Made by a program: the position numbers and the translations under genes. The notes beneath the pieces were generated by a model. It did not search any database and had not been told where the DNA came from. It saw nothing but the letters and a program-made list of their open reading frames with translations. DNA of 44,271 bases. Origin: a virus. Numbering within the stretch: position 1 is the first letter of the stretch; every line of letters begins with the position of its first letter. Positions 28,353 to 37,764 of the stretch are shown here, piece by piece. Where the stretch lies: the IMG/VR virus record IMGVR_UViG_3300047564_004221, positions 1-44,271 of that record. One strand, 5' to 3'.

Positions 28353-31300
28353 TTAGTTAAGCATTGGTTTTGTTTTATCTTGCCAATTTTTATCACTTAC
28401 TGTTTTAATAACAGATTCAGCAATTTGATCGGCCATTTTTTGCTGTGCGTCGTAATTAGTAATAATCATGTCGCCAGTTTGTTTTTGCTGTTCTTTGCGT
28501 AGTTGTGTTACTTCTTCTCGTAGATCTTGTAGTTCTGCAACCATTTGCTTGAATGTTTGGGTTGTGCTTGCTACTGGGGTAAACATTCCGCGAGTTTCTT
28601 CGGCGGTGTATACTCTACCAGGTGTTGCAAAGTCTACCAGTTCAGGACCCTCTTCTCCAACCATTGCTAAACCTGCGGGTGCTAGCCCGCCTTTAGCAAA
28701 ATAGTTAGGATAACCATAATCTACTGAAGTATTTGCTTGCTGCATACGTTGTGCGGCAAGTTCAGCTTCCGCTGTAGCTATAAACGTTGCACGTTCTGCT
28801 GCATCAATAGTAGCTCCAAATTGACGTGACCAGTAGTCTAAGCCACCTGGATCTGGCTCTCTGTTAAGTATCTCACGGTAAAGGGCAGTAACAGCGGCTT
28901 TGGCAGCATTTATTTCAGCTTGTGCTGTGCCTGTAAATATAGCACGCTCGTTTGCGTCAACAATTGGACCAAATTGATTAACCCAGTATTCTAAGCCACC
29001 TTGATCTGGTTCTCTGTTAAGTACTTCACGATAAAGATTAGTAACGGCCTGTGTAGCTGTAGGACCTAATAGTCTTTCGATTCTGCCTAAAGATTCTAAC
29101 TGATCGTTAAGAAGCGTTAATTGTCTTTCGCCAATATCGATAGTGTCTTGGCTTAAGTTACCAGCAGTTTCCAAAGCGTCTAAGACTGTTTGGAAATCTG
29201 TAGTATACTGTGCACCGCTAGCAAATAACTCTCTGGAAATAGTTAAGAAGGTTTGTGAAGCACCTTGTAACTTACCAAGAGCCTCTTCATTTCCTGTTAG
29301 TGCTAAGCCGCGTACAGATTCAAAATCTGCTTTAGCTTGTGCATAACGTTCAATTGGAGTTAGTGTACTAGTAGAACCTACTAATAGGGACTGTCTAAAC
29401 TCACGAAGTGATTTAGTTAAGTCTGCTAGCTTAGAACTAGAACTTCCTAAGATACTACTTTGCAGTTCTAGTAGTTCGTTATAGGTTTCTGCATTGTTTA
29501 ATAACAGTGCAAAAGTTTCACGATCGTACTCGCTGCCAACTATATCAAGCGAATTTATTAGGTTTGTAAACTCAGTTTTTGTCTGTGGCAGTGTTCTACC
29601 GGCATCAGTAAATACTCTTGTTAACTGATTAAAGCGTATTCTAAATTGTTGCTCTTTGCTAAGGAACTTGTCGAAGTATACATTAATAGATTCTGCGGCA
29701 CTTTCTATTCCGCCTAATTTATCAATTAAGTCTTGTTCAAAAGCAATTGCAGCTTGAGTACTTAAATTAGCTATACGAATTCCAAGTATTTCTAAGCCAA
29801 TAGCTAAAGTTTCACTTTCTTTAACTATTCTAGCAACTGTTTCAAAATATTCTTCGCCTATTCGTTGATATTGCTCGATATACGGAAATATCTTTTGAGC
29901 ACCTTGATTAATAGCTACGCTTAGTTCTGCAAGAACTGCTTCTATTGCTTCTTTGCCTGTTAGTCCTTTTAAGCTAACATCCAGATTTATTGCTAAATCA
30001 GATATAGCTTGTACGGCTTGTGAACCAGAACCTTCTAAAATAATGGCTGATTCTTCTAAAACAGACTTCATTGACTCAAATACACTGCTTAAGCCTTCGA
30101 CAGCATCTTGTTCTAAGTCTCTAAAGTTGGTGCTTGTTCTGGTACTCTTAGATAAGCCGAACAGCCTTTTCTTTGTTGTGGTTACAACTTCGTATTGTTG
30201 GAATATTCCTAGACCTTCTGCTAGTTGTTGTAAAGTTCCAGTAACTTTTATACCAGCATCTTGAATAGTAGTAGTTGTTTTTGTTAGCAGTCCGAATAAT
30301 CCTCCGCCACGACTACCTTCTATAGTTCCAAACTGAGAAACATTTCCACCGAAACCACTTACTTGACCAAGCAGGGCCTTAACAGTCTCTCCAGTATTCT
30401 TTTCAATATCTTGTAAAGATCTTACTATCTTACTGCTGCCGCTACCAAAACTTCCAAAAAACTCTTCGCTTAGTCTATCAATACTGCTAGTAATACTATC
30501 TGCTTTTTCTGTTGGGTCGCCTAAAACTCCGCCGGCTCTAGTTACTAGCTGCCCATTAACATATTGTTGGCCTGTACCTTGTACTTCTTGTCGTTCGGCA
30601 GCACTTGTTCCTGCTTGAACTTTTGGCTCTTTTCCACCAATAGATGATAATAAGGCACCAACAACAGCAGCGGTTGCTGCACCGGCTGCAATGTTTAGCG
30701 GGAAAGGTAAACTAGCAATAGCTTTTACTACAGCTTTAACACCATCTATTCCGGCTTCAACAACGGAAGCTGCGCTTCTTGTTGCACTATTTGCTACACT
30801 TACTCCAGTTGCGGCAGTATCGGTTAGCATTTCTTTAATAGTCATAGCTATTTTTGCTATGTGCATTGCCTTTTCAATACCAGCTAATATTTTATATGCT
30901 GCTGTTTTTTCCTTGAACATTGATTTTGCTGAAGCGACTACTCTAATGTTTCCATTTAATTCGTCTTTTTCAGCCTTTTTACGAAGATCTCTTTCTTCTT
31001 TTAGTAGTTCTATGCTAGGGGAGCCACTTTCTTCTTGGCGCTTAAGATTATCTGCTAGTGCTTTTGCATTCTTTTCGTTTTGAACGCCTACTTCGGCTAA
31101 AGCGACTACAAACTCACCTATTTTTTCTCCAACAGTTCCGAAAGCACCACCTAAAGCTTCTGCTAAACTTCTGGAGTTGTTAATAATATCATTGAATCTT
31201 GCTTGCTCAAGTCCTGCTTGTTTTACAGCGTCTGCTATTCCTATAGACTTCTGTAGTTGAGCATCTGCTAACTTAATTGTATTATCTTTAGCAGCCTTTT

Positions 31301-34300
31301 GTGCTGCTTCTCCTGCAAGAATCAAATCTATTCTTCGTTGAGTTTCGCCTGTTAATCCATCTTCACCAGTATCAGCTGCAAGAAGTTTTCTTATTTCAAA
31401 AGTATTACGAGCCTGTTCTCTAGCAAACTCTTCGTTTGCTAAAATCTTTGCTCGCTCGTTTTCGTATAAGGCTGTTTTTAGAGTATTTTGATAAGCTATT
31501 TCTAGTCTGATTCTTTCGGTTAGACCAAGATTTTCAATATTTGCTTGTTGAACACCTTGTTCTGTTTCTAAACGAAGTTTTGCTATTTCGAGTTCCGTTT
31601 CTCTTCTAGATTTAACAACGGAAGATTCGCGATCAAACTCAGCTTGTTCTCTGTTAATTCTTTCTATAGTAGTTGCTGATAATGCTTTTGCAGCGTCCAG
31701 TCTGGACTTTTCTAGCTCCAGAGCTCTTTGTGCGGACGCTTGATCTAGCTGTTGATTCAATCTATTCTGTAAATCAGGTAAATTTTTCTGAAAGTCTGCT
31801 GCGGGTAGGTTTCTTAGTCTAATTATTTGTTCCGCATATTCTCTTGTAGCAGCTAGCTTACGATCTTCAAATTCAAGCTCTATTTGCTTTTGTCTATTTA
31901 AGTTTATTTGATTTGTTACTTGGTCTTTAACATCTAAACCTAAGTTTTCTTGAGCAGCCAAAACCTTTAATTTTTCGCCATCAAGTTTTAAATCTTCTAA
32001 TTTTAATTTATTTTCATTTTGCTGCTGTTTGAATCTAGCGTTGGAAACATTTACTTGTTTCTGCAGTTCTTCAGATAAACGTTGTTTGCTTAAATCAGAT
32101 AAAGTTCTATTATACTCTACAGTTCTAGCGCTTAGTTCTCTAATGGTTGCTCCTAAGCGCTTTCCTATTTCTGTTTGATTTTTCTCTTCCTCGCTTAACA
32201 GTTTAAGAGCGGCAAGAGGATCAGAAATTGCTTTTTCTAGTAGATTTAATTCAGTTCTAGCTTCTGCTAAAGCCGTGTTTGCAGTTTCTCTTTGCGAATC
32301 TGTTTGAGCATCTTTTGCGGCTGTTTCTGCTCGTGTTACTTTTAGCTGCGCTGCACTTAGTATTGTTGCAGTTGTTAACGATCTCATTGCCTTTGTATTT
32401 TCTACTTGGGCATCAATTTCTTTCAATTTTAAATCAGAGCTTTTTGCCACTAATTCAGGAATTGCATCAAAAGATGCGTATATTCCTTGTAGAAATTGAG
32501 TAGATCCTTTAGAAATTTGTGCAGCTAATCTAACAGCTAATAAATCTGTTTGTGCAGCTAAAGCTTGTGGAAGGGCTTTTCCAACTTTTTCGCCTATTTC
32601 ATTTAGTTTTGTTTCTGCAGCCAGCCCGCCTCTTTGAGCCTGTGCTAACGCAACAGCTACTCTTTCTCTCTCTGCGCGCAACTCTGCTACAGCTTGTTCA
32701 AAAGCTCTATCGTCTCGTTCGTCTTGTCCGCGTGCACCTTTACGGAGAAACTTAGAATCATTTCTATTTAGCTCTACCTTATTTAATCGCTCTAGTTCTT
32801 CTGCTAATTTTTTACTTTCTTTGGCACTGTCCGAAAGCTGGTTTTTATATCTACTAGCTTCGTCAGCTAGTTGCGAAAGTTCCGGACTTAGTTTCTCTCC
32901 AAAAATAGACGTACCACGACCAATGCCTTGAAGAACTTGTACTAATTGATCAGCAGATTTTATTACACCTTGAGATAATAAATTATTTAAATCGTTAAGT
33001 GCATTAGAACTGTTAATAGCAAAATTAGCTAAGTCATCAGAAACTGCAAATTTTTGGTTAATCTGTGCTATTTGATCAGTAATCTTTTTATAGGACTCTG
33101 CAAATTGTGTGCTAGCTATTCCAGCTATTTTTGCCTCTGTAGCGATTCCTTTAATAGCTTCTTCAAGCTTTTTAAGTTCAGGAGACGAAGCACCTAGTCG
33201 TTTTGCCGCAGCTTCTATATTTTCAAAAGTTAGATCAGTTATTTTTAACTGCTCTGTTACAATATTTGTAACCCTGGATAACGCAGCTGGGTCGTCTATA
33301 CTTTTAATTAGTGCAGTGACTTGTGTGGCTATGCCCTTACCAAAGTTTCGCTCAACTCCACTAATTCCAATAAATTCCTTAAACCTAGAATACCAACTTC
33401 CACTTATTGCCTCTTGCGCTTCTTTAGTGCGCTTAGTTAATTCTTCGAATCCTAGTGCAAGTTCTGTTAAAGCATTTCCGCGAGCTTGTGTTGCCTGTGC
33501 GGAGAAAGGGTCGTTTCTATAAAGATTTTCGTAAGTGTCCTGCAAGTTTTTCACAGTAGATTCGACTTTACTTACTGCACTGTCAAATTTTCCTACTGCT
33601 GAACTGGCTTTATCCAAGAATAAATCGAAAACAGAATATAAAGTGGCAAGTATACCTATAGCGCCTAAAAATCTATTGAAGGCTGCACCTAGTGCAGATA
33701 AAGCTCCTCCAATAGCGGCAGCTCCCGCTTTTACTCGTAAAGTAAAGGCGTCAAAGCCCTTAATACCTTGTTCAACAATAGCTGCATTTACAGCAATCAT
33801 TGCTCTAGTAACGCCGACTAAACTAGCCTGATATGCTGCATTACTAATTATTGAGGAACGAACTGCTTGCTGTTTAGCTCTTTCGGCCGTTGATAAAGTT
33901 ATTGACTCTATACTGTACCATTTTGTAGCATTTTGTCTAGCTTTTGTTTCTGTTTCTAAGGCCTTTTCGTAAGCCTTACTTTCTGTTTGGTAAGACCTTA
34001 TAGCTACTGCTGCTTCGCGATAAGCTTTAGCTTGATCTGTTAAGCCTCTACTCTCTAAGCCTTTAGCACTCGTTTCTATTCTTTTTAATTCTTTATCAGT
34101 AATGCTTTCAAGATCTTTACTGAGTATTTTATATAAACTAGATTGTTTATTAATACTGCCAGCTTTAATATCCTGAATACGTTTTTCTGCAGCAACTACA
34201 TTTGCAACTTCTTTTTCAACGCGTGCTTCAGCGGCTTTTTTTACAGAAGCACTAATTGCTTCTTGTGCTACAGCAGCGTCTTTGGCACGTTCAATGGCTC

Positions 34301-35324
34301 TGTCACGTGCTTTTTCTGCAGAGCTTTCTAAACCTGCTCTAAATTGTCCAAATGCTGGTAATGCTTGCTTAACAATAAGTGTAGCAACAGCACCCAATAC
34401 CGTTAAAAGTGCTGTTGGACTTTGAGATAAATAACTAACTAAAGGTATTACGGCTGTATTTACTACTTCTAGTACACTTTGTCCAACGTTTTTAAGTGTA
34501 GCCAAAAACTTAGCATAAGGGTTGGCATCTAGTTCTAAAGTTCCAAACTTTTGATTACCTTCTTCTAATACAGCTATTGCGAACGCCTGTCTACGTTCAA
34601 AGTCTGTTAGTGAGCTTGCTGCCCTGCCTATACTTTGTGCATACTTTTGAACAGACGGATCGAGTTTAGAGAATAAGCCCAATTCGTCTAATAATTCTGG
34701 TTCTAGCTTTGTAATACCGCGAGTTAATCTACTTATAGCGTCTGACATATCCACGCCTAAAGCTTGGGATGCCTTTTTAGCTATGTTTCCTAGCTCTAGT
34801 ACTTGTTTTGAATTTAGTCCGCTGCTAGTAGCTTTAGTAACTGTTTCCATAGCTTCGCGCATGCTAATGGCACCGTCTGTTACTTCTACTAGTTGCTTAC
34901 TCAGAGTTCCTAAAGCCATGCCAGATCTTGCACCAAGTTGATCCAATCCTTTGATCATGTTGGTAGTGTCAGCGGCAGCCTTAAGAGCTGTAAATGCTGC
35001 ACTTACAGCGAATAAGTTAGCTGCAAATGTGGCGTACAAACGCACTAAGCCCCCCAAGCCTTGGGCTTGGTTGGCAAAATCTCTTGCACTAGCACCGGTG
35101 GTTCCGGCGGTGCCTCTCATTTGGCCGTATTCAGTGCCACTCATACCAGCACTGCCGCCCATAGCTCTTGCGGCGGCTGCTCTTGACCCTGCTGTACCGC
35201 CCAAGTTTGTAGCACTTCTAGCAGCTTCATCATACGCTGCTTTAAGTGCTTTGGCTTTTTTCAGCTCGGTATCAGCAGTTCCATTAGAACTTACTGTTAA
35301 GCCAATTTTGATATCATTTTGCAT
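28353..35324 (-). CDS. Tail tape measure protein, 2323 aa
   Basis: It sets tail length and is ejected ahead of the DNA. The start at 35324 (MQNDIKIGLTVSSNG) has an AGGAGA ribosome-binding site 4 bases upstream; the open frame continues 8 codons back without such a site. The N-terminal 60 residues are the usual small beta domain; then come a hydrophobic segment (LVRLYATFAANLFAVSAAFTAL), long alpha-helical and Gln/Glu/Lys-rich coiled coils (about residues 350-1450), and a second hydrophobic region (LPFPLNIAAGAATAAVVGALL). Near the C-terminus are two DUF4214-like units, then FAKGGLAPAGLAMVGEEGPELVDF, a hallmark end of tape measures. At typical helix rise, this length would predict a tail of a few hundred nm. 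No peptidoglycan hydrolase motif is seen. Confidence 0.95.
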   Translation of the reverse strand: MQNDIKIGLTVSSNGTADTELKKAKALKAAYDEAARSATNLGGTAGSRAAAARAMGGSAGMSGTEYGQMRGTAGTTGASARDFANQAQGLGGLVRLYATFAANLFAVSAAFTALKAAADTTNMIKGLDQLGARSGMALGTLSKQLVEVTDGAISMREAMETVTKATSSGLNSKQVLELGNIAKKASQALGVDMSDAISRLTRGITKLEPELLDELGLFSKLDPSVQKYAQSIGRAASSLTDFERRQAFAIAVLEEGNQKFGTLELDANPYAKFLATLKNVGQSVLEVVNTAVIPLVSYLSQSPTALLTVLGAVATLIVKQALPAFGQFRAGLESSAEKARDRAIERAKDAAVAQEAISASVKKAAEARVEKEVANVVAAEKRIQDIKAGSINKQSSLYKILSKDLESITDKELKRIETSAKGLESRGLTDQAKAYREAAVAIRSYQTESKAYEKALETETKARQNATKWYSIESITLSTAERAKQQAVRSSIISNAAYQASLVGVTRAMIAVNAAIVEQGIKGFDAFTLRVKAGAAAIGGALSALGAAFNRFLGAIGILATLYSVFDLFLDKASSAVGKFDSAVSKVESTVKNLQDTYENLYRNDPFSAQATQARGNALTELALGFEELTKRTKEAQEAISGSWYSRFKEFIGISGVERNFGKGIATQVTALIKSIDDPAALSRVTNIVTEQLKITDLTFENIEAAAKRLGASSPELKKLEEAIKGIATEAKIAGIASTQFAESYKKITDQIAQINQKFAVSDDLANFAINSSNALNDLNNLLSQGVIKSADQLVQVLQGIGRGTSIFGEKLSPELSQLADEASRYKNQLSDSAKESKKLAEELERLNKVELNRNDSKFLRKGARGQDERDDRAFEQAVAELRAERERVAVALAQAQRGGLAAETKLNEIGEKVGKALPQALAAQTDLLAVRLAAQISKGSTQFLQGIYASFDAIPELVAKSSDLKLKEIDAQVENTKAMRSLTTATILSAAQLKVTRAETAAKDAQTDSQRETANTALAEARTELNLLEKAISDPLAALKLLSEEEKNQTEIGKRLGATIRELSARTVEYNRTLSDLSKQRLSEELQKQVNVSNARFKQQQNENKLKLEDLKLDGEKLKVLAAQENLGLDVKDQVTNQINLNRQKQIELEFEDRKLAATREYAEQIIRLRNLPAADFQKNLPDLQNRLNQQLDQASAQRALELEKSRLDAAKALSATTIERINREQAEFDRESSVVKSRRETELEIAKLRLETEQGVQQANIENLGLTERIRLEIAYQNTLKTALYENERAKILANEEFAREQARNTFEIRKLLAADTGEDGLTGETQRRIDLILAGEAAQKAAKDNTIKLADAQLQKSIGIADAVKQAGLEQARFNDIINNSRSLAEALGGAFGTVGEKIGEFVVALAEVGVQNEKNAKALADNLKRQEESGSPSIELLKEERDLRKKAEKDELNGNIRVVASAKSMFKEKTAAYKILAGIEKAMHIAKIAMTIKEMLTDTAATGVSVANSATRSAASVVEAGIDGVKAVVKAIASLPFPLNIAAGAATAAVVGALLSSIGGKEPKVQAGTSAAERQEVQGTGQQYVNGQLVTRAGGVLGDPTEKADSITSSIDRLSEEFFGSFGSGSSKIVRSLQDIEKNTGETVKALLGQVSGFGGNVSQFGTIEGSRGGGLFGLLTKTTTTIQDAGIKVTGTLQQLAEGLGIFQQYEVVTTTKKRLFGLSKSTRTSTNFRDLEQDAVEGLSSVFESMKSVLEESAIILEGSGSQAVQAISDLAINLDVSLKGLTGKEAIEAVLAELSVAINQGAQKIFPYIEQYQRIGEEYFETVARIVKESETLAIGLEILGIRIANLSTQAAIAFEQDLIDKLGGIESAAESINVYFDKFLSKEQQFRIRFNQLTRVFTDAGRTLPQTKTEFTNLINSLDIVGSEYDRETFALLLNNAETYNELLELQSSILGSSSSKLADLTKSLREFRQSLLVGSTSTLTPIERYAQAKADFESVRGLALTGNEEALGKLQGASQTFLTISRELFASGAQYTTDFQTVLDALETAGNLSQDTIDIGERQLTLLNDQLESLGRIERLLGPTATQAVTNLYREVLNREPDQGGLEYWVNQFGPIVDANERAIFTGTAQAEINAAKAAVTALYREILNREPDPGGLDYWSRQFGATIDAAERATFIATAEAELAAQRMQQANTSVDYGYPNYFAKGGLAPAGLAMVGEEGPELVDFATPGRVYTAEETRGMFTPVASTTQTFKQMVAELQDLREEVTQLRKEQQKQTGDMIITNYDAQQKMADQIAESVIKTVSDKNWQDKTKPMLN
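28750..29055 (-). repeat. Two DUF4214-like units in the tape measure
   Basis: Tandem copies of the segment LYRE(V/I)LNREPDxGGLxYW ... QFG ... DAxERAxFxxTAxAE, spaced about 51 codons apart. This is the DUF4214 pattern known from bacterial surface proteins. The DNA of the two copies is similar (AAGCCACCTNGATCTGG on the + strand occurs in both). Confidence 0.88.
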
Positions 35325-35375
35325 GGTATCTCCTGTTAACAATACCACCTATAAATTACTATAGAGCAATTTTGG

Positions 35376-35449: not shown

Positions 35450-35479
35450 AAACCCCATAGAATTTCTTCTATGGGGTTT
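35450..35479. terminator. Rho-independent terminator after the tail chaperones
   Basis: Arms AAACCCCATAGAA (35450-35462) and TTCTATGGGGTTT (35467-35479) pair perfectly over 13 bp around TTTC. The - strand continues TTTTTGC; the + strand is also T-rich after it. The upstream arm covers the last codons and stop of the chaperone T frame. Promoter P2 begins 25 bases further on. Confidence 0.95.
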
Positions 35480-35792
35480 TTGTAGGTTTTTGTTTTGGTT
35501 TTGACAGTTCTATAGCTTTGCTACGTGCATTATCTAGTATAGTTATCCATTCTAGAAATTGTTTTCTGTCAGCTTTTTCAACTTCGAAGATGTCTAAGAT
35601 TTCTCCTAGTCCAGTATAGCTTTTGCCTAAGTATAAGCCATTCATTGTATCCCATTCATCACGTAGTCTGTAATAAACGGTTATAGCTTGCTGAACTTCA
35701 TCAGGAAAATCTTCTAGATCAAAAGGAATCTCTGACTCTATAGGCTCACTGCCCATTGCTTCGCACATTTCAAAATATCTGTCCTTGGTCAT
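35469..35792 (-). CDS. Tail assembly chaperone, T-like frame (read by -1 frameshift)
   Basis: The second frame of the chaperone pair. The 107 codons from the ATG start MTKDRYFEMCEAMGSEPIES and include ITVYYRLRDEWDTMNGLYLGKSYTGLGEILDIF, a pattern (FEMCEQxGSEPxxxEIP ... DxWxxMxGxYxGK) known from phage tail chaperones. No Shine-Dalgarno precedes this ATG, and the frame is open upstream through 35861. It is therefore most likely made as the C-terminal part of a G-T fusion after slippage at GGGAAAC in the upstream gene: about 130 G residues, 23 linker residues and these 107, near 260 in all. In lambda the equivalent fusion recruits the tail tube protein to the tape measure. Confidence 0.9.
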   Translation of the reverse strand: MTKDRYFEMCEAMGSEPIESEIPFDLEDFPDEVQQAITVYYRLRDEWDTMNGLYLGKSYTGLGEILDIFEVEKADRKQFLEWITILDNARSKAIELSKPKQKPTKTP

Positions 35793-35833
35793 GCCAACGC
35801 TTGCATTTTGAAAGTACGCAAAGAGTCGTTCAC

Positions 35834-36250
35834 TTATTTCTTCGCGTTGCTGCTGGGAAAGTTTCCCAAGTCTGTTACCGTTTCACTAACGAAGCTATCA
35901 AAATTAGAGCTATTCTTCATTAAGAATAAAGCATTTTCTTCAGTATACTCTAATTCGTCTTCTGGATCTTGTCCGGATAGATCGACGGGTACTAGCTGTT
36001 CCAAGTCACGTAACTTTAAGCCTTTCCAACCCTTAATACAGGCTTGTGCATAAAGTTGTAAAAATAATTCGTCGTTTAATTCTTCTGTAGCTTGACGATT
36101 TTTAAAACTAGTTTTTGTTGCCTTTTTGCGAATATTAAGCAAAGTCTCACGGCTTAAAAAGCCTAATTTAATTTTGAAGCCTATAATACCTGGATATTCA
36201 ACTTCTACTTCTTTGCTTGGCACCAAAAGGGTTTTTAACGAAACTGCCAT
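35834..36250 (-). CDS. Tail assembly chaperone, G-like frame
   Basis: A 138-residue protein between the major tail protein and the tape measure, the conserved place of lambda G. It starts MAVSLKTLLVPSKEVEVEYPG and has LGFLSRETLLNIRKKAT, DELFLQLYAQACIKGWKGLKL and a C-terminal EYTEENALFLMKNSSNFDSFV. The last segment resembles tail-chaperone (TAC) helices. It is not expected in the virion; it coats the tape measure during assembly. Its 3' end contains the slip site GGGAAAC at codons 128-130. Most ribosomes would stop at the TAA (35834), and a fraction would continue in the -1 frame. An AGGAAA ribosome-binding site precedes the ATG. Confidence 0.9.
   Translation of the reverse strand: MAVSLKTLLVPSKEVEVEYPGIIGFKIKLGFLSRETLLNIRKKATKTSFKNRQATEELNDELFLQLYAQACIKGWKGLKLRDLEQLVPVDLSGQDPEDELEYTEENALFLMKNSSNFDSFVSETVTDLGNFPSSNAKK
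35861..35867 (-). other. Programmed -1 frameshift site GGGAAAC
   Basis: The heptamer lies in the right phase (G GGA AAC in the G frame, i.e. X XXY YYZ) and differs from the lambda G/GT slip site GGGAAAG only in the last base. After slippage the frame is open with no stop into the T-like gene. The site sits inside TGGGAAACTTTCCCA, which could fold into a small stem. Confidence 0.92.
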
Positions 36251-36309: not shown

Positions 36310-37764
36310 TTAAGCGTAGTAGCGAACCATTAAGTCGCTTGGGTTTGTAAGATCGAATGTGTTGTTTGCAGCAGTTGTGCTTGGTACATAACCTTGAGCG
36401 GTAAACGCAATGTTTGTACTGATAACCTGCTGAACATCCACTGTTGGAACTGCTAGCACAACGCTTGGCATTTCTAAGTCAACGTGAACTGTGTTTGCTG
36501 CTCCGCCGATGTTAACGATTAGTTCGAACATTGGCTCAATGTTGGTAGCAGCTTCGGCCAACATGTCCTTTAACAGCTCACCGCTCTCGCCGCTAGTACC
36601 GGTACGTAGATAAGCAGTAATGTTTCCGCTGATAGCACGTGTTCCGGTATAGTAAACTACTGGAGAGTTAACAACACCTAGGTTAGCTGGTGTAATGTAG
36701 GTGATGTTGTTATTAATTGTGAAGCTACCGCCAGTGATTGGGATATTGTAGCTGTCACCAGCAGCGATGCTGCTACCGATTGCTTTGTTAGCCTTTAGGC
36801 TGATAGTACTTAACTTGTTAGTAATGTACTGAGCATCGGTGATTTTGTCTAAGTAACCACCAGTACCGACGTTAGCACTGATACCACCACTAAAGCTTCC
36901 GCCATTAGCTGTGATGCCTGTACCAAATTCGCGTAGGGCTGTTGCTTGTCCAGTCCACTGTGCAGTAGCGATCTGGTCTAGTCCGAAGTCGATAGTGACC
37001 TGGTTTAGAGCACAGTTATCAACTGCGTATAGCACGTTGTCAACTAGGAACAACATTCCGAACTTTTGTAGCTGGTTCTTTTCGCTTAAACCTGCAGTAA
37101 CTTGACTGTAGGTAGTATTGCTTTCGTTCCAAGCAAATGTGCTGTACTTAACAGTACTAGCACTGATTGTGCCGGTAGCTGCAGTAGCTTTGTGGTTAAC
37201 TAGTTGGATTGTGATACTGGTGCTTGTGCTGGTAAGAACTTTACCTGCACCGTTCATGTACTTGTCTTGGCCAGCAGCACTGGTGCTGCCTGTGATGCCA
37301 CTTAATACAACGATACTGCCTACTGTTGGTAGTGTACCTGTAATGGTTGTACCAGCAATGGTTACGATACCAGTGGTGGCTAGGGTAACGCTGGTTACAC
37401 CGCCTAAGCTGGTGGGTGTTCCTACGTTAGCAGCGCACATTAGGGCGTTCCATAGCACGCTTTCTTCAGCAGTAATTTTTGTAGTTGCATTCTTTGGACG
37501 AATGTAAGTACTGAAACTAAAGTCTACTGGGGCTAAGCTAGTATTGAAACTGCGCTGACCACGAACTGGGTTTTCACTGGCCTCAGAAATTGTAACAGCT
37601 TCGCTGTTAACGTTTTGAGAGAATGTGAATCCGTCTAGAACCTGAATTTCGTATGTATTGCTGCTGCTGAAAGCAGTAGAGCTAGCTGCCTTAATTGCAC
37701 CTGTTGTCGAATCTACGTTTGTAGTAAAGAATACCTTACTATTGCGTACTAAATTTAATGCCAT
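36310..37764 (-). CDS. Major tail (tube) protein, 484 aa
   Basis: Starts MALNLVRNSKVFFTTNVDSTTG and continues with NTYEIQVLDGFTFSQNVNSEAVTISEA and RGQRSFNTSLAPVDFSFSTYIRP, a well-conserved N-terminal half in this type of tail tube protein. The middle (residues about 115-180) has a TSVTLATTGIVTIAGTTITG insert resembling an Ig-like domain. The C-terminal half contains GGSFTINNNITYITPANLGVV and ends in VAFTAQGYVPSTTAANNTFDLTNPSDLMVRYYA. At 484 residues it is larger than lambda gpV, consistent with an extra surface domain. It has a strong AGAGGAAAG ribosome-binding site, fitting high expression, and a stem-loop directly after its stop. Placed between tail terminator and chaperones, as expected. 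Confidence 0.9.
   Translation of the reverse strand: MALNLVRNSKVFFTTNVDSTTGAIKAASSTAFSSSNTYEIQVLDGFTFSQNVNSEAVTISEASENPVRGQRSFNTSLAPVDFSFSTYIRPKNATTKITAEESVLWNALMCAANVGTPTSLGGVTSVTLATTGIVTIAGTTITGTLPTVGSIVVLSGITGSTSAAGQDKYMNGAGKVLTSTSTSITIQLVNHKATAATGTISASTVKYSTFAWNESNTTYSQVTAGLSEKNQLQKFGMLFLVDNVLYAVDNCALNQVTIDFGLDQIATAQWTGQATALREFGTGITANGGSFSGGISANVGTGGYLDKITDAQYITNKLSTISLKANKAIGSSIAAGDSYNIPITGGSFTINNNITYITPANLGVVNSPVVYYTGTRAISGNITAYLRTGTSGESGELLKDMLAEAATNIEPMFELIVNIGGAANTVHVDLEMPSVVLAVPTVDVQQVISTNIAFTAQGYVPSTTAANNTFDLTNPSDLMVRYYA

Follow-up and report, generated by a model that had tools for sequence, protein, structure and literature searches.

The window, by which we mean the whole stretch of DNA analysed here, is a virus fragment of 44,271 bases (IMGVR_UViG_3300047564_004221), and its source is a freshwater phage of a T5-related kind. 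Its genes include those for a portal, a protease-capsid protein, connectors, a tail terminator, a tail tube protein, the chaperones G and T, a tape measure protein, tail fibres, PhoH and ribonucleotide reductase. G and T are consecutive ORFs in different frames. They are placed between the tail tube gene (36310-37764) and the gene for a tape measure protein of 2,331 aa (28353-35348), so that the order at the locus is tail tube, G, T, tape measure. The ORF of G, the short tail assembly chaperone, lies at 35834..36250 on the minus strand, encodes 138 aa and matches the tail assembly chaperone family phrog_313 (E 2.7e-20). The T reading frame, taken from the slip site described below, lies at 35469..35861 on the same strand, is open for 130 aa plus a stop, and matches a second tail assembly chaperone family, phrog_3914 (E 1.2e-17). 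The chaperone proteins also match the Pfam family TAC_5, below its cut-off, and G matches none of the solved structures convincingly (best E 0.019). Among named phages, the matches of G are T5-like Demerecviridae with 31-41% identity. A near-identical phage was not found in the phage collection, nor was any relative found in a scan of bacterial genomes.

The 3' end of the G ORF reads ACA GAC TTG GGA AAC TTT CCC AGC AGC AAC GCG AAG AAA TAA and contains the heptamer G_GGA_AAC (35861..35867, minus strand), in phase with the codons of G. Eight sense codons separate the heptamer from the G stop, which is the ninth codon. The -1 frame reads LSQQQREEISERLFAYFQNASVG-MTKD... and continues for 130 codons before its stop at 35469; the ATG that the ORF finder assigned to T (35792-35790) is codon 24 of this frame. 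The initial annotation had proposed that a programmed -1 frameshift at this heptamer joins the two tail chaperone frames. It had placed the heptamer in the correct phase nine codons ahead of the G stop, counted 23 stop-free -1 codons up to the T ATG, expected a fusion of about 260 residues, and noted a difference of one base from the lambda G/GT heptamer. Every one of these counts was correct on recheck against the sequence and the ORFs: the predicted GT fusion has 130 + 130 = 260 aa, and the single difference from lambda is AAC for AAG as the second slip codon. GGGAAAC occurs once on the two strands of the 44,271-base window, against 2.7 occurrences expected.

A scan of viral contigs yielded 80 relatives, to which a second one, made with a T5-like query, contributed further loci. 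The resulting -1 set has 107 loci including the window, or 68 after removal of near-copies (5% over 155 bases). A -1 heptamer is present at the same place in 107 of 107, counts that come from related sequences and are not independent trials. It is GGGAAAC in 87 loci and A_AAT_TTY in 20 (AAATTTT in 13, AAATTTC in 7), the latter sitting one codon later; the non-redundant loci divide into 55 and 13, respectively. Throughout the 55 GGGAAAC loci, GGA and AAC are invariant and the preceding codon is only TTG or CTG. Elsewhere in the genes of this group, GGA accounts for 22% of Gly codons, AAC for 38% of Asn codons, and TTG and CTG together for 15% of Leu codons. The A_AAT_TTY loci use AAT for Asn without exception and have a codon ahead of it that ends in A, both of which the A_AAT_TTY form demands. 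When the two motifs are mapped on a tree of the fusions, the label changes at least three times, on well-supported branches, which indicates that the heptamer was retained while its letters were swapped repeatedly. The arrangement of the slip site is far beyond chance, and its conservation in relatives rules out a heptamer that arose by coincidence. The comparison of related phages, which had been suggested as a check on the proposed frameshift, thus found the position and phase of the heptamer conserved and the -1 frame open.

The linker, the 23 T-frame codons from the slip site to the T-frame ATG (35793..35861, minus strand), shows signs of translation in the T frame. Between the last of the G stops among the loci and the T ATG (codons 14-23), the -1 clade is under purifying selection in the T frame only: pN/pS is 0.48 in that frame (bootstrap 0.45-0.52), compared with 1.03 and 1.10 for the two others. 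The product of the -1 frame in the linker has the conserved pattern L-F/S-x-E-Q ... Y-F-Q-N. In no uncut locus does the T frame meet a stop in the first 90 codons from the junction, while the remaining shifted frame closes within 29 codons in every locus. The T-frame ATG (35790..35792, minus strand) is a conserved Met codon and an unlikely start of T; it is not preceded by a Shine-Dalgarno sequence, as had been noted for the window. Across the relatives, the mean anti-Shine-Dalgarno duplex energy upstream of it is -1.32, which is weaker pairing than the background of -1.88. Stops in the linker of related genomes, or a strong ribosome-binding site before the T ATG, had been named in advance as observations that would count against a frameshift; in the relatives, no stop closes the linker and no such binding site occurs. 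Given T-frame selection in the linker, an open T frame and a weak or absent start, the simplest reading of these sequences is that translation reaches T from upstream and yields GT.

The alternative that survives best, improbable as we consider it, is that T is a separate protein and the heptamer incidental. Ribosomes would then start T at the ATG at 35792, through translational coupling or reinitiation once past the G stop, which lies 41 bases upstream. Of the 68 non-redundant loci, 65 retain the ATG, and in most annotations of T5-like phages T is given as a gene of its own. The retained ATG is, however, accounted for by its Met, which belongs to the conserved protein motif M-T-K-x-x-Y, and it is absent altogether from three loci (L031, L035 and L151). 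An independent start was judged unlikely for want of a Shine-Dalgarno signal, since pairing upstream of the ATG is no better than background, and selection on the codons preceding the ATG requires translation that began upstream of them. Slippage during transcription rather than translation is a different matter, in that a frame change by itself does not separate the two. We regard it as very unlikely: the longest homopolymer run at the site is 3, and the conserved feature is the phase-dependent form X_XXY_YYZ, whose codon phase does not vary among the 107 loci. That the frame change is an artefact of sequencing or assembly, or marks a recent pseudogene, has negligible likelihood: it is refuted by 106 further -1 loci, drawn from many separate metagenomes, with the same slip motif and the same relation between the frames.

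The window thus very probably contains a lambda-type G/GT pair of tail chaperones expressed by programmed -1 ribosomal frameshifting; the conserved heptamer, T-frame selection and the open linker in relatives all support the -1 shift that had been proposed. The sequences show the position, phase and conservation of the heptamer, selection on the linker in the T frame and the lack of a start signal for T; from them we infer that ribosomes slip here, how often they do so, and what part GT takes in tail assembly. The majority of ribosomes would make G only. A few would slip in tandem at G_GGA_AAC, where the tRNAs on GGA and AAC would re-pair with GGG and AAA; these ribosomes would then read CUU UCC CAG and onward through the T frame to produce the 260-aa GT fusion. 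If lambda is a guide, the tape measure protein may be coated by many copies of G and few of GT, and tail tube subunits may be recruited by the T part of GT.

Frameshifting of the lambda G/GT type is widespread, and different tailed phages use -1, -2 or +1 shifts (PMC5009743). The window resembles lambda in its gene order, with G and then T between tail tube and tape measure, and in the placing of a -1 shift close to the 3' end of G (PMC5009743). The slip sites, G_GGA_AAG in lambda and G_GGA_AAC in the window, have the same heptamer form and differ in one base. The window differs from lambda in having AAC rather than AAG as its second slip codon, and in its protein families, phrog_313 and phrog_3914, which are of the T5 type. 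The G-T frameshift of the haloarchaeal virus HCTV-1 uses the identical heptamer, G_GGA_AAC, in a gene pair of this kind (PMC5009743); the host there is an archaeon, and the likeness is one of heptamer and kind of gene pair. Because such frameshifting is widespread and GGGAAAC itself was already reported in HCTV-1, the window is a further case of a known kind. The AAC-type heptamer is uncommon in the bacterial literature that we searched, and the window adds a well-supported example from tail chaperones.

No conserved RNA stimulator accompanies the slip site in the sequences and folds searched. The initial annotation had pointed to an almost palindromic sequence enclosing the site that could form a small stem. 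The sequence, TGGGAAACTTTCCCA, is indeed present, and the stem finds no support: the 3' arm (CCC after the Phe codon) occurs in one of the 68 non-redundant relatives, the window itself, which means that the palindrome is not conserved. Pseudoknot-free folds of the 60 bases just downstream of the heptamer (mean z -0.43) are no stronger than those at control offsets. A 9-bp stem can form in the window 13 bases past the heptamer (35847-35839/35824-35816, minus strand); it is absent from the folds of four close relatives (L001, L002, L005 and L008). A stimulatory hairpin was rejected because the palindrome is unique to the window, downstream folding is at control level and the 9-bp stem is not shared. 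A conserved stem-loop shortly past the heptamer, by which downstream-stimulated -1 sites are recognised, was not found.

T5-like phages have the same gene pair in another frame relation. When 15 Demerecviridae regions were first inspected, the -1 heptamer was absent from them. The genes of T5 itself (T5.143 and T5.142) and its kin are homologous to G and T of the window, G with about 31-41% identity, and have the same place, gene order and junction Phe column. Unlike in the window, the T domain lies in the +1 frame and is continuous with G at TTT_CGT, or at TTT_CGA in some Vibrio phages. The +1 set has 53 loci from Demerecviridae and kin (L082-L122, L148-L150 and L153-L161). All 53 have an in-phase junction motif, TTTCGT in 45 and TTTCGA in 8, and a +1 frame that is open to T. 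Elsewhere in the genes of these loci, Phe is encoded by TTT (51%) and TTC (49%) and at the junction by TTT only, which is what a shift of tRNA-Phe from UUU to UUC would predict. The linker again shows selection in the T frame, with a pN/pS of 0.30 (bootstrap 0.21-0.40), and values above 1 in the other frames. The junction Phe occupies a column of the G alignment that never varies; its codon in the window is the TTT that immediately follows GGGAAAC. In the tree, which is unrooted and has some long +1 branches, all -1 loci fall on one side of a single branch with support 100/99; among them is L151, a divergent -1 locus with A_AAT_TTT.

From these sequences, T5-like phages seem to arrive at this fusion through a forward slip of one base, made at the same codon. 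It is likely, with less assurance than we attach to the -1 shift in the window, that in a single chaperone family whose members can be aligned the direction of frameshifting has switched, at one and the same codon position, between -1 (G_GGA_AAC or A_AAU_UUY) in the freshwater clade and +1 (UUU_CGN) in the T5-like phages. UUU_CGN is the +1 motif of influenza A PA-X (PMC3498833) and of plant amalgaviruses (PMC5052127). These are eukaryotic viruses in which the genes concerned are unrelated to the tail chaperones; the motif is shared with 53 of the 53 T5-like loci and not with the window. If the +1 reading is true, T5-like phages use in bacteria the motif of PA-X and the amalgaviruses. A full-text literature search for UUU CGU together with phage frameshifting found only one review, on the influenza case, and in the literature searched, in which few subscription papers were covered, we found no description of a UUU_CGN site in T5-like phages or of its place opposite a -1 site. 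Most T5-like records annotate the two chaperone genes as separate, and a genome note on phage Sugarland reports T5 and Sugarland as without a predicted frameshift signal (PMC6256483). Salmonella phage Shivani (KP143763), by comparison, has a two-piece joined CDS of 832 nt, the length required by a +1 shift, so the shift was already annotated at least once. The motif provides a testable +1 site for T5, a model phage whose predicted frameshift signal was reported absent. The family as a whole shows slip sites exchanged and the fusion retained: the two -1 motifs have replaced each other repeatedly, and in a sister group it is a +1 motif, placed at that same Phe, that leads into the T domain. It amounts to a natural experiment on the requirements of the fusion; what is needed would be a ratio rather than a direction.

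The surroundings of the pair have features of their own. Terminator-like hairpins lie on both flanks of G and T: one at 36307-36283 (minus strand), just after the tail tube gene, and the other at 35479-35450 (minus strand), with a stem that includes the T stop codon. Erwinia phage KEY and Klebsiella phage Sugarland likewise have a terminator annotated between T and the tape measure gene. Between the second hairpin and the tape measure gene of the window is a promoter-like element, TTGACT-17-TATAAT (35425-35397, minus strand), which matches at 11 of 12 positions and has a TG preceding the second hexamer. The C-terminal part of the tape measure protein (28353-28800, minus strand) contains two DUF4214 (PF13946) repeats, to our knowledge an unusual location for this domain.
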